DNA from: Herpetosiphon giganteus
GTDB lineage: Bacteria > Chloroflexota > Chloroflexia > Chloroflexales > Herpetosiphonaceae
Direction of reading: 5' to 3'
Assembly (NCBI RefSeq): GCF_016907925.1
Contig: NZ_JAFBCZ010000013.1
Location: 1 to 64,000, forward strand
Length of the DNA stretch: 64,000 nucleotides
Position 1 is the stretch's first letter, and every line of letters begins with the position of its first letter. Positions 25,577-46,695 of the stretch are shown here, one piece after another. Under the pieces are notes generated by a model. That model made no database searches and had not been told where the DNA came from. It saw only the letters and a program-made list of their open reading frames with translations. The translations under genes were made by a program, and so were the position numbers.

Positions 25577-25862
25577 GTCAACCTCCTTGCAGTGCCTCGA
25601 AGGGGAATATTTAGCAGCAGTATACCACAGCCGATCGTTGCTTGTCATAGCTATTCTAGAATTAGATTTTGATCAACACCACTGCACCTTGCCGCAAAAT
25701 GGGCAACACAAGGGATTTTCAGCATCTCTCGCCCTTCGGGTGCTTCGCGGTTCTGGGTGCGCATTCGCTGTTTGGCAGATTGCCCAATCTTGTATACTTT
25801 CCACAATAATTTGGCCATCAGCTTATGGCAATCTGACCATAGTTCATGGTTTTAAACCAGCC

Positions 25863-25868
25863 TATAAT
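25863..25868 (+). promoter_or_regulatory. Candidate -10 element for the RNA leader
   Basis: A consensus TATAAT lies ten bases before the first hairpin of the structured leader. No convincing -35 hexamer was seen at the usual spacing. Confidence 0.4.
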
Positions 25869-25877
25869 CAATGTTAT

Positions 25878-25966
25878 AGACCAGAAGTGGTCTGGTGTGT
25901 CCGTGACTGGCGTGCGGCGGTGGGAGTCCCGGCCCTCCGCCCAGCCGAAAGCAGACACCACGAGGT
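25878..25966 (+). ncRNA. Candidate structured leader RNA / cis-regulator
   Basis: The leader of the 64-residue membrane protein folds well by eye. AGACCA (25878-25883) pairs with TGGTCT (25888-25893) across a GAAG tetraloop. GCGGTGGG (25917-25924) pairs with CCCTCCGC (25933-25940), with one mismatch. CTGG (25907-25910) pairs with CCAG (25941-25944). TGGTGT (25893-25898) can pair with ACACCA (25955-25960), which ends beside the GAGG ribosome binding site (25962-25965). The first stem and the closing stem share base 25893, so they may be alternatives. The class is not assigned. Confidence 0.5.
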
Positions 25967-25977
25967 AGCCAATTCGT

Positions 25978-26172
25978 ATGCAACAAGCACCAGAACCCGC
26001 AAAGCTCTTCGATTTACCGCCGCATGATGTTGGTTGGGAAGGAATTCTCTTTTTCAGTGCAGGCTATGTCTTGGCAGCCTTGGTGCTGTTTATGATTTTG
26101 GGGGTTACGCTAGCGAGCATTCTGCTGGTTGGCTGCCTATTGGCCTTCTTGGGAATTAATTTCTGGCACTAA
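25978..26172 (+). CDS. Small hydrophobic membrane protein (64 residues)
   Basis: After a polar N terminus of about 20 residues (with PPHDVGWEG), residues 21-62 are almost wholly hydrophobic and can form two membrane helices: FFSAGYVLAALVLFMILG and SILLVGCLLAFLGINF. The function is unknown. The start is ATG with GAGG 12 bases upstream, at the end of a strongly structured leader. A perfect terminator hairpin follows it at 26185, so it is probably a one-gene transcript whose expression is controlled through the leader. Confidence 0.75.
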   Translation: MQQAPEPAKLFDLPPHDVGWEGILFFSAGYVLAALVLFMILGVTLASILLVGCLLAFLGINFWH

Positions 26173-26184
26173 GTTTCAATAATT

Positions 26185-26218
26185 AAGCCGCTGGATCACA
26201 ATGATCCAGCGGCTTTTT
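26185..26218 (+). terminator. Rho-independent terminator
   Basis: AAGCCGCTGGATCA (26185-26198) pairs perfectly with TGATCCAGCGGCTT (26202-26215), followed by a T run to 26218. It separates the small membrane protein gene from the convergent CHRD protein gene. Confidence 0.9.
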
Positions 26219-35756: not shown

Positions 35757-36851
35757 ATGTTAGCTCAAATTCGTTCACGCAAACGTGTATTGGCGATTGG
35801 CGCTGCTGTTTTGGTTGTCTTTTTGATTGGTACTCAATTATTTAACGGTTCGAGTAATTCTGAATCGCAAAAACTTGGAACGGTTGCACATTCGATGGAC
35901 TCAGCTCCAATGCCTACGTATCAAGCAAGCCGTCAAGATGCTGCCAATTCAGATTTGTTATTGTCGCAAGAAAGTGAAAGCACTGGTTCGACGGCACTTG
36001 GCGGGGCTGCTGCACCAACTGATAAGTTTGCAGAGCCAGAACAGCCTAATGCAGCACCCAGCCAAGCAACCGAGCGCTTGGTGATTAAAAATGCCAATGT
36101 TGAAGCCTTGATCGATTACAAACAAATGCGCTTGGCCAGCACCCAAATTGAAAATATGGTGCTGCGTTTGGGTGGCTTTATCGTTTCGACTGATGATGCC
36201 AGCAGCAATGACGAAGCCCAAGCCTATATCTCGCTGGCCTTTCGAGTTCCCGCCGATCAATTTGAAAAAGCTCTGAATGCCTTTGAAGAAAATAAGCTCG
36301 AAGTTGTGCGCCGCGAAGTCTCGGGCCAAGATGTCACCGAAGAATTTGTTGATAATCAATCACGCTTAGCCAATTTGGAAGCAACCGCTGCCCGCATTCG
36401 CGAATTGCTGGCCAAAGCTGAAACCATCGCCGACACGATTAAAATCAACGAAACTTTAGCTCAATACGAAAGCCAAATCGAAGTTATCAAGGGCCGTCAG
36501 AAATTTTTGAGCGATAGCGCTTCGATGAGCTTGGTTACCTTGATGATTCGGCCAAAAGCCACCGAATATAGCATTCTTACCACGCTTGATATTGGCCAAA
36601 ATGTGCGCAACGCGCTTGCCCGCGCCGAAAAACCAGCTTGGACTCCACTTGCTGCTGCGACTGGCGCTTGGGACGATGTTTTGGCAATCGGCAAAGATTT
36701 GGCCGAAACCTTGGTTGTTTGGGCAGTCTGGATTCCAATTTGGTTGCCATTGCTGTTGGTTGCTTGGTTTGGCTGGCGCAAATGGCGCAAATATAGCCAA
36801 AGCCAAAATACCTCAATCAATACGCCAAATCCGACCGTCAACCAACCCTAA
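35757..36851 (+). CDS. DUF4349 domain membrane protein
   Basis: This 364-residue protein has an N-terminal membrane anchor or signal segment (about 10-24), a Ser/Ala/Gln-rich spacer (to about 105), a DUF4349 domain (about 108-345) and a C-terminal membrane helix (VVWAVWIPIWLPLLLVAWFG). Typical DUF4349 features are IKNANVEALI, GGFIVSTDDASS, FRVPADQFEKAL, VTEEFVDNQSRLANLEA and a central coiled coil. The function of the family is unknown. AAAGGAAA precedes the ATG. Confidence 0.88.
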   Translation: MLAQIRSRKRVLAIGAAVLVVFLIGTQLFNGSSNSESQKLGTVAHSMDSAPMPTYQASRQDAANSDLLLSQESESTGSTALGGAAAPTDKFAEPEQPNAAPSQATERLVIKNANVEALIDYKQMRLASTQIENMVLRLGGFIVSTDDASSNDEAQAYISLAFRVPADQFEKALNAFEENKLEVVRREVSGQDVTEEFVDNQSRLANLEATAARIRELLAKAETIADTIKINETLAQYESQIEVIKGRQKFLSDSASMSLVTLMIRPKATEYSILTTLDIGQNVRNALARAEKPAWTPLAAATGAWDDVLAIGKDLAETLVVWAVWIPIWLPLLLVAWFGWRKWRKYSQSQNTSINTPNPTVNQP

Positions 36852-36927
36852 ATTGTGGTACCATTTTGGCAACGCCATCGCAGGGCTAAGAGCTAGTGCT
36901 CTTGGCCCTTTGTGTTGGGAGGGTTAA

Positions 36928-37767
36928 ATGTTGCTCGATTTGCATTGTCATACAATCGCCACGCCCCATCATTCACATTGGACACCAAGCACACTAATCG
37001 CGGCGGCCCAAGCTGCTGGCATCAACGTGATTGGGATTGCCGACCACAATACGACCAGCCAAATAACCGCATTTGCCGAGGCTGCGCAGGCTGCTGGCCT
37101 GCATTTCATCGGCGGCGTTGAGTTCGATAGCGCCTTCAATGGCAAGCTTTGGCATACCTTGGTCTATGGCGCAAACCCCAACGATGCTGGGATTTTGGGC
37201 TTGTGCGAGGCAGTTGTGAGCCGCAACCATGCCGATGCCCAACGCTTGCTTGCCCAAACGCAGGCTGCTGGCCACGAGCTGCCAAGCCTTGGCCAAATTG
37301 CCGTCGATCGCCCAGCCAACTTGGCCGATGTGACCCATGCTTTGGTACGCGATGGCATCTGGCCCAGCCAAACTGGCGTTGATCCTGAATCAGCGGGCAT
37401 GGCCTATTTGTTGACCAACCAACCTGAAGCCTACAATCCGTTGAGTGTGGCCGAAATTGTGCAGGTAGCGCAGGCTGCTGGTGGCGTGGCGATTTTGGCT
37501 CATCCTGGCCGCGAAAAAAGCGTCTACGCCATCCCAGCCACTGCCGACGATTTGGCAGCGCTGGCGGCGGTTGGGCTTGATGGGATTGAGGTCTATTATC
37601 CAATGCATAGCGCTGAGCAAGTGGCGTTTTTCAAGCAGCAAGCGGCCTTGCATGGCTTTCTGATCAGCGCTGGCGGCGATTCGCATGGCCCGCGTGATCC
37701 GTTCAGCCCACAGCCTGTCGAGCGTTGCAGTGCGTTGTTGGCTCGCTTCGGGATTGATGTCCGATGA
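36928..37767 (+). CDS. PHP domain phosphoesterase
   Basis: This 279-residue protein of the PHP superfamily is a likely metal-dependent phosphatase acting on a nucleotide or small phosphate ester. Metal-binding motifs include DLHCHTIATPHHS (residues 3-15), IGIADHNT near 40, a later ILAHPGR near 190 and GGDSHGP near 250. This order fits the RNase AM/3',5'-nucleoside bisphosphate phosphatase group. GGGAGGG precedes the ATG. The stop codon overlaps the next gene (ATGA). Confidence 0.9.
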   Translation: MLLDLHCHTIATPHHSHWTPSTLIAAAQAAGINVIGIADHNTTSQITAFAEAAQAAGLHFIGGVEFDSAFNGKLWHTLVYGANPNDAGILGLCEAVVSRNHADAQRLLAQTQAAGHELPSLGQIAVDRPANLADVTHALVRDGIWPSQTGVDPESAGMAYLLTNQPEAYNPLSVAEIVQVAQAAGGVAILAHPGREKSVYAIPATADDLAALAAVGLDGIEVYYPMHSAEQVAFFKQQAALHGFLISAGGDSHGPRDPFSPQPVERCSALLARFGIDVR

Positions 37768-39333: not shown

Positions 39334-40131
39334 ATGACAATAACAAATCTTTTGCCTTATGTATTACCACCCTTAAAATGGGCTGGTGGTAAGCGTTGGT
39401 TGGTTTCTACATTATATGAATTATGGAAACCATTTGCTAATCGACAATTGGTTGAGCCATTTGCTGGTGGTCTGGCTGTATCCCTTGGATTACAGCCAGA
39501 CCTAGCATTGATTAATGATATAAATCCTCATTTAATGAACTTTTATCAACAAATTAGCAAAGGTTTAGTTATTAATATTCGTCTGGAAAATTCTGAAGAT
39601 TTATATTATCAACATCGTGATCGATTTAATCAACTAATCAGAGAAGATAATTATAAAACAGCAGAAGCTGCATCAATATTTTATTACTTAAACAAAACAG
39701 GATATAATGGATTATGTAGATTTAATAAGAAAGGTTTTTATAATGTTCCTTTCGGTCGATATAAAAAGATAAATTATATAGATGACTTTCAAGATTATCG
39801 ACAAGTTTTAGAAAATTGGAATTTATCAAATAGTCATTTTTCAAACCTCGATATAGCAGAGAATGCATTTATTTATGCTGATCCACCATACGATGTCGAA
39901 TTTACTAACTATAGCAGTGGTGGATTTAGCTGGGATGACCAAGAACATTTGGCTGAATGGTTATCAAAGCATCAAGGGCCAGTTATTGCCTCAAATCAAG
40001 CAACTGAACGCATTCAGAAACTTTATAAAAATCTGGATTTCAAGTTAGTTCTTGTTGATGCACCTCGTCGAATATCTTGTAATGGTGATCGTTCTTCTGC
40101 AAAAGAAATATTAGCTACTAGAGGAATATAA
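39334..40131 (+). CDS. Dam-type DNA adenine methyltransferase (D12 class)
   Basis: This 265-residue protein is an N6-adenine methylase of the Dam/D12 class. The SAM-binding motif KWAGGKRW is at residues 15-22, EPFAGGLAVSL near 41, NKTGYNGLCRFN near 120 and the catalytic DPPY at 183-186. Dam relatives recognise GATC or a similar site; the exact site is not visible. The gene is far richer in A+T than its neighbours, a sign of horizontal transfer. The partner gene starts two bases downstream. The ATG at 39334 follows AAGGGAT. Confidence 0.94.
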   Translation: MTITNLLPYVLPPLKWAGGKRWLVSTLYELWKPFANRQLVEPFAGGLAVSLGLQPDLALINDINPHLMNFYQQISKGLVINIRLENSEDLYYQHRDRFNQLIREDNYKTAEAASIFYYLNKTGYNGLCRFNKKGFYNVPFGRYKKINYIDDFQDYRQVLENWNLSNSHFSNLDIAENAFIYADPPYDVEFTNYSSGGFSWDDQEHLAEWLSKHQGPVIASNQATERIQKLYKNLDFKLVLVDAPRRISCNGDRSSAKEILATRGI

Positions 40132-44300: not shown

Positions 44301-44576
44301 CGGGAGCAGCGCGAAGCAGAGGCGCGGGTTGCGCAACCAATTACGCGGCCAAATAGCACGAATTACGCTGCTGAGCCAACTGAATCGCGCTTCAAGCAAG
44401 GCGATCGGGTGCATTGCGTGCCCTATGGCGAGGGCGTGGTGCAAAAAACGCGCATTCGCGATGGCCGCGAACTATTGCTGGTACAATTTCCAGAGCTTGG
44501 TGATCTCCGTGTTGATCCAGCGGTCAATGCTGTGCGCATCGTGCGCCCTGAGATTCAAGCCGACGACGACGAATAA
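41376..44576 (+). CDS. Degenerate YprA-type helicase fused to low-complexity and Tudor-like tail
   Basis: This 1066-residue protein has the layout of a YprA/Hrq1-type SF2 helicase but without working motifs. GWPWQAEALATVRRG recalls the Q-motif region. The Walker A site reads APAPLGPA where a TGSGKS is expected. Motif Ia reads LLLLAPDAASLHDL. The DEAH position reads IVLPAFDQA, and the RLILTTPTTLHQRML segment before it matches helicase strands. The later AEERPLQQSE, LDSVTVERRLFSGAS and GEILLGVLPLLLRCQPDAM resemble the C-terminal DUF1998-like region. After about 700 comes a Pro/Gln/Arg-rich tail with a 31-residue tandem repeat. A UvrD/PcrA-like domain ends it (GDRVHCVPYGEGVVQ). I infer a non-hydrolysing DNA-binding protein. 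Confidence 0.7.
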   Translation: MSISSASTPIGDVLQQIAQRFAQSSRSPLLRSGELALPDASTQPLPLAPELAVAWRALLGETGWPWQAEALATVRRGLGLALVAPAPLGPACLLLLAAEHISANQGSLLLLAPDAASLHDLAQTANNIDALLGGGFPHLVVEQTTRPPHSPPRLILTTPTTLHQRMLRTHHRGWSNMWPQLSGIVLPAFDQANSTSFGHCRWLLRRVERLRPRARPLTLYASLAPVAEIDELLARVFDHLPPLVYANTARIPLTWALWNGGTQPVDAALKLALALRQAGLSVQLDAPDSLERAILAQRGAAQGLSIVPRAAAPAHVLVMVGGVNATSLPSLLASGHRAVVLVTDQSIAAQTALAQPALLTPNLPPALPVATQNNYISSGHLRCAAEERPLQQSEISAWEVSDLVERLTQRNQLAQLPDSPTWQPVANLQQRSDIYATLHPTTISDVPVQIVDHEGTFLAELDSVTVERRLFSGASVLGGRVVGWNDDGSLGMRLQDAAPTLAEHRCSVSVREQFGQRPLDGARAEIELTIGRVVVTEEIVARRSLADDGSMRRVPFEPPIQLQWNAPALWLGAPEAGAGLGEILLGVLPLLLRCQPDAMVACLSEQQLYLVEAQPGGRGIVEQLYSQFEAWLHLAGLAARTLSKDPIYANYAQAELRWLENILVPLAAPLRADMPPEPAQIAPPRVERASRQSMVISTNELNARRRGRGNVFALPRSLPKQGEAVKRQTTPLPSQPALPAQPMRLAAQQPPASKPITNQRPAVRKEAPPAPPAPEKAKPNVTRPPRRKASVGRNEAQRSTQPLVQPKAAAPSNQLPPERGSVVIPAPNQPPAYERPPFQQRNAQEKPAPQRPISRPVQRETQPNQRPVQREQQPARPYQRNDQPTKPMPRETQPNQRPAQREQQPARPYQRNDQPTKPMPRETQPSQRPAQREQRPIQPNLTEQPARPYQRNEQPAKPVEANADPQAMLEKARRLREQREAEARVAQPITRPNSTNYAAEPTESRFKQGDRVHCVPYGEGVVQKTRIRDGRELLLVQFPELGDLRVDPAVNAVRIVRPEIQADDDE

Positions 44577-44589
44577 TTAAAGCTGTGAC

Positions 44590-44639
44590 AACGAAGCCAC
44601 TACCGTGACCAGCATTGTGCTGATCGCGGTAGCTTTGTT
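44590..44639 (+). terminator. Imperfect hairpin, weak terminator
   Basis: AACGAAGC-CTACCG (from 44590) pairs with CGGTAG-CTTTGTT (to 44639) with a two-base bulge and an inner CAGC/GCTG stem. The T-rich tail is poor. It lies 14 bases after the helicase-like gene. Confidence 0.4.
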
Positions 44640-44662
44640 GGTCGCAAATAAAGGATAGAACA

Positions 44663-45528: not shown

Positions 45529-46623
45529 ATGGCTGATGTAACCAAGTTTGTGCGGCCTGATATTGCAGCGCTGGAAGCCTACACGCCAATTCAACCATTC
45601 GATGTGCTCAGCGAACAATTGGGCATTCCGATTGAGCAAATTATTAAACTTGATGCCAATGAAAATCCCTACGGGCCTGCGCCCAGCGTTGCCGAAGCGC
45701 TGCGCGATTTCCCGTTTTATGCAATTTATCCCGACCCAGATCAGACCCGTTTGCGGCGGGCAATTAGCCCATTTATTGGCCAGCCAATTGAACGAATTTT
45801 GTGTGGCAATGGCTCGGATGAAATTATCGATTTGTTGATGCGAGTGCTGGTGCAGCCCAACGATGTGGTAATTGCCTGCCCGCCAACTTTCGGCATGTAT
45901 AGCTTCAACACTGGCGTTGTTGGCGGGCGTTTTGTGGCCGTACCGCGCGATGCCAACTTCGATGTTGATATTGAAGCAGTTGCCGACGCAGTGCTTGAGC
46001 ATCAAGCCAAAATGGTCTTTTTGCCCTCGCCCAACAACCCGACGGGCAACCTTTTGCCACGAGAGCACGTCCTACGGCTATTGGAATTACCAACAATGCT
46101 CGTGTTGGACGAAGCCTACGCCGAGTTTAGTTCGGGGAGTGTTGCCGATTTGGTTGGCCACTATCCCAATCTGGTAGTTTTACGCACCTTTTCCAAATGG
46201 GCTGGTTTAGCTGGTTTGCGCTTGGGCTATGGCCTGATTCCAGAGTGGTTGATTACCCACTTGTGGAAAATCAAGCAACCCTACAATACCAATGTGGCGG
46301 CAGAAGTGGCGGTTTTGCAATCGTTGGCCGAAACCGAGGCGCTGAATGCGCGCGCCAAGGTGATGGTGGCTGAACGCGAGCGTTTATTCGCTGCGCTGCA
46401 AGCAATCGATGGCCTCACGCCGTTTCCTTCGCAGGCAAATTTTATCTTGTGCCGAGTTGAGCGTGGCGATGCTGCCCAACTTAAAGCCGAGCTTGCCAAG
46501 CGCGGAATCTTGCTGCGCTACTATCGCAACCCAGAGCTAGCCAATTGTATTCGCGTGAGTATTGGCCTGCCAGAACATCATGATGCCTTGCTTGCAGCGT
46601 TAGCCGATTTGGGTTATCGCTAA
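45529..46623 (+). CDS. hisC: Histidinol-phosphate aminotransferase
   Basis: This 364-residue PLP-dependent class I/II aminotransferase carries the HisC features: [10 protein letters not shown] near the N terminus, [41 protein letters not shown], and the PLP-lysine segment [16 protein letters not shown]. It makes histidinol phosphate from imidazole-acetol phosphate and glutamate. Other his genes are absent from the window. A TATCAT-like -10 in the 74-base gap may give it a promoter of its own. Confidence 0.94.
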
Positions 46624-46695
46624 ATTGCATTGACATCAAGGAACGCGGCGTGCTATCGTTGCCACAGAGTTTCATGATTGTGGAGTGATCGTTGT

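Follow-up and report, generated by a model that had tools for sequence, protein, structure and literature searches.

Layout of the locus

The leader described here lies in the window, by which we mean the whole stretch of 64,000 nucleotides that was analysed. The window belongs to contig 13 of a Herpetosiphon-like genome, and among the orthologous records are those of H. aurantiacus DSM 785, H. geysericola and H. llansteffanensis. The leader is part of a single small plus-strand transcription unit, flanked on the left by a minus-strand gene and on the right by a minus-strand gene encoding a CHRD-domain protein (Pfam PF07452), with the following features:

25772–25862, plus strand: dyad-containing upstream promoter/operator block; invariant at 88% of the columns of the six-genome alignment, with inverted repeats, unique to the locus
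25863–25868, plus strand: −10 box TATAAT, read from the sequence and invariant in the six-genome alignment
25876–25942, plus strand: leader core of 67 nt, identical in 6/6 genomes and the longest invariant run of the aligned synteny
25878–25893, plus strand: hairpin H1, AGACCA-GAAG-UGGUCU, predicted in 6/6 leader folds; sequence invariant
25894–25960, plus strand: predicted closing helix P1, GGUG(u)GUC... / ...GACCACC in four genomes and GUGUC/GACAC in the window and one relative
25908–25947, plus strand: central GC-rich stem UGGC..GGCGG.GGG-AGUCCCGG-CCC.CCGCC..GCCG, predicted in 6/6 folds; 13/13 pairs invariant
25962–25965, plus strand: Shine-Dalgarno GAGG, 12 nt 5' of the ATG, read from the sequence and kept in six genomes
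25978–26172, plus strand: ORF for a 64-aa protein, identified by dN/dS and codon-position conservation
26185–26215, plus strand: intrinsic terminator 3' of the ORF; stem kept in aligned genus members, loop length variable

The leader spans about 100 nt (25876–25977) 3' of the TATAAT box, ending at the GAGG site and followed by the ATG of the 64-codon ORF at 25978. Transcription is predicted to start near 25875–25876; we recognised no good −35 hexamer to go with the TATAAT box. We found no terminator inside the leader or between it and the ORF, and the sole fitting intrinsic terminator of the transcript is the one after the ORF. Synteny breaks sharply at about 25770: the left flank differs among genus members, with similarity absent left of 25770 in three of them, and to the right of the break the leader, the ORF and all aligned sequence are colinear.

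By its substitution pattern the ORF is a real gene, since pairwise dN/dS among six orthologues is 0.03–0.16 with dS up to 1.5 and the first, second and third codon positions are 78, 97 and 48% invariant. The 64-aa product has a conserved N-terminus ending in LFDLPPHDVGWEG, followed by about 40 hydrophobic residues, which therefore probably form two membrane helices. Comparison with Pfam, NCBIfam and PHROG assigned it to no family, there was no match in the PDB, and no convincing homologue was seen beyond Herpetosiphon in 60 relatives and 400 genomes of the phylum.

Conservation of the leader within Herpetosiphon

Leader and ORF form one single-copy unit in all six Herpetosiphon genomes searched, and the leader occurs at no other locus in them; an apparent second copy, signalled by the 16-mer CAGACACCACGAGGTA that the secA leader shares with the ribosome site of this gene, proved to be the ribosome-site context of secA. 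The preliminary description had proposed a structured leader placed after a −10 box and ending by the ribosome site of a 64-residue membrane protein, and the sequence, the predicted fold and the conservation all bear this out; absence of the leader upstream of orthologues would have told against it, and it is instead present and nearly identical in 6/6 genus members.

Against a background identity of 80–92%, positions 25876–25942 are invariant in every genome, even though synonymous sites of the ORF diverge by as much as dS 1.5. This core ranks first of 8,096 alignment windows, covering over 8 kb in six genomes, and no longer invariant run exists in either the 8.3 kb six-way or the 28.7 kb five-way alignment. 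Since invariance begins about 8 nt past the TATAAT box, approximately where transcription should start, and the bases in between (25869–25875) vary, we infer a constraint at the level of the RNA. Within the leader, clear variation is limited to the 3' strand of P1, where a 5-nt deletion in two of the six genomes (the window and one relative) leaves the helix shortened and re-paired as GUGUC/GACAC. An upstream ORF or leader peptide was rejected: no open frame in the leader is conserved, the frames shift or end at differing places between species, and their third positions are invariant, unlike those of coding sequence.

Strong conservation of this kind is not unique to this gene in the genus, because other noncoding runs reach 53–62 nt, and at secA the three genomes compared show no difference in promoter or leader. 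A run of 62 invariant nucleotides (46609–46670), nearly as conserved as the leader, takes in the end of a gene and the 54 intergenic nucleotides that precede 46678, and another of 53 nt (36843–36895), mostly intergenic, lies 5' of the gene at 36928. Other promoter and leader regions of the genus being nearly as invariant, constraint need not in itself mean a special RNA.

Predicted fold

All six leaders are predicted to fold into H1 (25878–25893) followed by a long, imperfect, GC-rich rod, with P1 as its closing helix and GGCGG.GGG-AGUCCCGG-CCC.CCGCC as its cap. The segment 25878–25980 has a minimum free energy of −43.5 kcal/mol (z −2.38), matched by 2 of 200 shuffled sequences, and the six orthologous leaders give z values of −2.6 to −3.05. 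Because equally extreme values occur in about 2.5–4% of the window's 91-nt segments, predicted folding by itself is only moderately unusual. The most extreme values in the window (z about −5) belong to 1051–1141, 39451–39541 and 44551–44641, which are strong on both strands and therefore probably inverted repeats.

The six leaders are near-identical and thus leave little room for covariation: of 31 pairs, 28 are constant in all of them, none shows covariation and no two-sided (compensatory) change is seen. P1 is retained in all six despite the 5-nt deletion in two, and one of its pairs changes from G-C to G-U in one species. The modelled structure is thus consistent with the sequences, without proof from covariation. 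ARAGORN found no tRNA-like fold in the leader.

Search for a second conformation

The leader had been described as having the layout of a cis-acting switch, in which a pairing of 25893–25898 with 25955–25960 would compete with the first hairpin. That pairing is predicted in the window, but the form it takes there stems from the 5-nt deletion found in two of the six genomes, and the supposed competition comes down to nucleotide 25893 alone, the two helices coexisting in predicted folds. In the window sequence H1 can be broken at a cost of about 2 kcal/mol, in other species at a higher one, and the alternative pairing to H1 uses ORF bases, which are not conserved. The predicted openness of GAGG varies between 0.04 and 0.71 among the species and does not differ consistently from that of synonymous-codon controls. 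Two further ways of occluding the ribosome site were rejected: sequestration of GAGG by codons 10–12 is predicted in some species only and not consistently beyond the synonymous controls, and an anti-Shine-Dalgarno pairing of the core CCUC with GAGG costs 12–16 kcal/mol. No conserved alternative pairing or second conformation was seen in the six genomes. Given the one-nucleotide overlap, the cost of disrupting H1, the inconsistent openness of GAGG and the lack of a terminator in the leader, the models provide no anatomical evidence for two leader states, and the switch layout is not upheld. None of these results points to a ligand-sensing role for the leader, which we consider unlikely.

Search for known RNA families

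Rfam reported nothing at gathering thresholds in the whole window and nothing relevant on the leader at E up to 10; this includes the ydaO-type riboswitches, to which a resemblance through GCCGAA had been suggested. The suggested likeness to the 5' half of ZTP riboswitches has a basis in sequence: the leader carries the ZTP 5' junction strand (G)UGACUGGCG, and its string CGTGACTGGCG also occurs in the lineage ZTP alignment. However, UGUCC before GUGACUGGCG is not complementary to the bases after GGGAG or GAGGUAGC, the P1 and P2 helices expected around GGGAG(Y) are missing, and the P3 element CGCCUGGGC, invariant or nearly so in ZTP sequences of the lineage, is absent in 6/6 leaders. A lineage-specific model, for which ten ZTP riboswitches from the order were used, finds GUGACUGGCG..GUGG[34]CCAC.AGG.AGC in order in the leader (6.8 bits, E 0.072 in a 451-nt search), and at least 12 unrelated places in the window outscore it. 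The RF01750 covariance model gives 55–56 bits to the genuine ZTP loci of these six genomes; the one in the window's own genome lies 5' of purH (L057, G000:C4:152125-152210, about 56 bits). ZTP membership therefore fails on the silence of Rfam, on a score below those of at least 12 window places and on the missing P1 and CGCCUGGGC, and the leader is, as far as its sequence can tell, not a ZTP riboswitch.

Range outside the genus

Pattern and covariance-model searches found no homologue of the leader outside Herpetosiphon. A spaced-pattern scan of 84,980 species genomes returned three Herpetosiphon records, nine Streptomyces coding sequences, which match in the same frame and look like methionyl-tRNA synthetase, and one Acetobacter match that also looks like coding sequence. 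Covariance-model searches of 158 genomes of the class and 301 of the phylum gave, outside the genus, only weak matches (best 26 bits) in the number and with the scores expected by chance; as the sequences behind the model are near-identical, distant relatives that have diverged in sequence may have escaped it. One 26-bit match, between rpsO and pnp in a genome of the same class (L077 1501–1598), has CGGGACTGGCGTTCGGCG and GCC stems and is probably due to chance. Literature searches found no description of the element.

Discussion

The leader is conserved, folded and held in a fixed place between the promoter and the start codon of orthologous genes, as a structured cis-acting 5' leader is. We consider it reasonably probable that it is a genus-restricted element of this kind acting on the translation or stability of its own mRNA. 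It would form the structured 5' untranslated region of a monocistronic mRNA confined to Herpetosiphon, in which the 5' hairpin, together with a rod that ends at the ribosome site, may act in cis. Hairpin and rod could themselves set the lifetime of the mRNA or its rate of translation, or they could serve as a landing site for a cellular factor, either a protein or a small molecule. Because the leader is without a terminator, any control would be exerted at translation or mRNA stability and not by attenuation. Several observations count against this account: no base change is compensatory, no relation between the leader fold and the openness of GAGG is conserved, and the folding z is matched by 2.5–4% of segments.

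A more specific proposal, that the leader represents a new Herpetosiphon-specific class of riboswitch or protein-responsive RNA controlling translation of the two-helix membrane protein, seems to us unlikely. Somewhat less likely still is an undescribed class of metabolite or ion riboswitch, with the invariant core as aptamer and ligand binding altering access to GAGG. Near-invariance that includes the loops is aptamer-like, the leader spans the distance from transcription start to ribosome site, and riboswitches often control small membrane proteins and transporters; the ZTP riboswitch of the genus likewise varies little, differing by eye at about 4 of 86 positions between two genus members. 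However, a riboswitch of this sort would lack any Rfam relative and be confined to one genus and one locus, its predicted fold would be an unbranched rod plus a hairpin, and neither a conserved alternative pairing nor a consistent change in Shine-Dalgarno openness accompanies it.

The constraint could also act on DNA, in a heavily regulated promoter whose transcription-factor sites extend into the leader. The largely invariant block at 25772–25862 is rich in dyads that look like transcription-factor sites, namely CAGATTGCC/GGCAATCTG (25776–25784/25827–25835), GCCAT/ATGGC (25814–25818/25825–25829) and TGGTTT-T-AAACCA (25847–25859). In two genomes, A-to-G and C-to-T changes retain the RNA-type pairing of GCCAT/ATGGC and break its DNA symmetry. 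Partial matches to the block elsewhere, examined as possible further copies, were chance similarities, mostly coding-like. We judge this explanation doubtful nonetheless, as the invariance breaks around the −10 flank and then, from the expected start, holds for 67 bases without a gap, beyond the usual length of an operator, and the sequence shows strong self-complementarity as RNA.

Processing of the leader into a stand-alone small RNA would account for the stable fold and high conservation, but we think it improbable, since no terminator separates leader and ORF and the leader is always tied to the ORF. Finally, descent from a degenerate or repurposed ZTP (pfl) riboswitch is very improbable: CGTGACTGGCG matches the 5' core of the ZTP junction exactly and the lineage model recovers the elements in order, but unrelated places score higher with the same model, P1 and the CGCCUGGGC motif of P3 are absent, the Rfam model is silent and the same genome has its genuine ZTP riboswitch before purH.

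If the genus-restricted leader is regulatory, it would offer a compact entry point to the study of RNA-level control in the Chloroflexota, with one hairpin, one rod and one 64-residue membrane protein; experimental work on RNA regulation in this phylum is, to our knowledge, scarce. It would also hint at what the orphan small protein responds to. If it merely stabilises the mRNA, the finding is an ordinary one.

Comparison with known systems

With ydaO/yuaA (c-di-AMP) riboswitches (RF00379) the leader shares only the short string GCCGAA, and its predicted structure, unlike theirs, is not multi-branched. The resemblance to ZTP (ZMP-ZTP, pfl) riboswitches (RF01750) extends to the leader position and to the conserved 5' junction strand CGTGACTGGCG (25902–25912), but the leader differs in having neither P1 around the junction nor CGCCUGGGC in a P3, and in preceding another kind of gene than purH. 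A further parallel may be found in those structured 5' leaders that determine the stability or translation of their mRNA, of which the ompA-type 5' stem-loops are an example: the Herpetosiphon leader likewise has a stable hairpin within a few bases of its predicted 5' end, and a stem that ends beside the ribosome site. It differs from these stabilisers in its near-total sequence invariance, which exceeds what a purely structural stabiliser would need.
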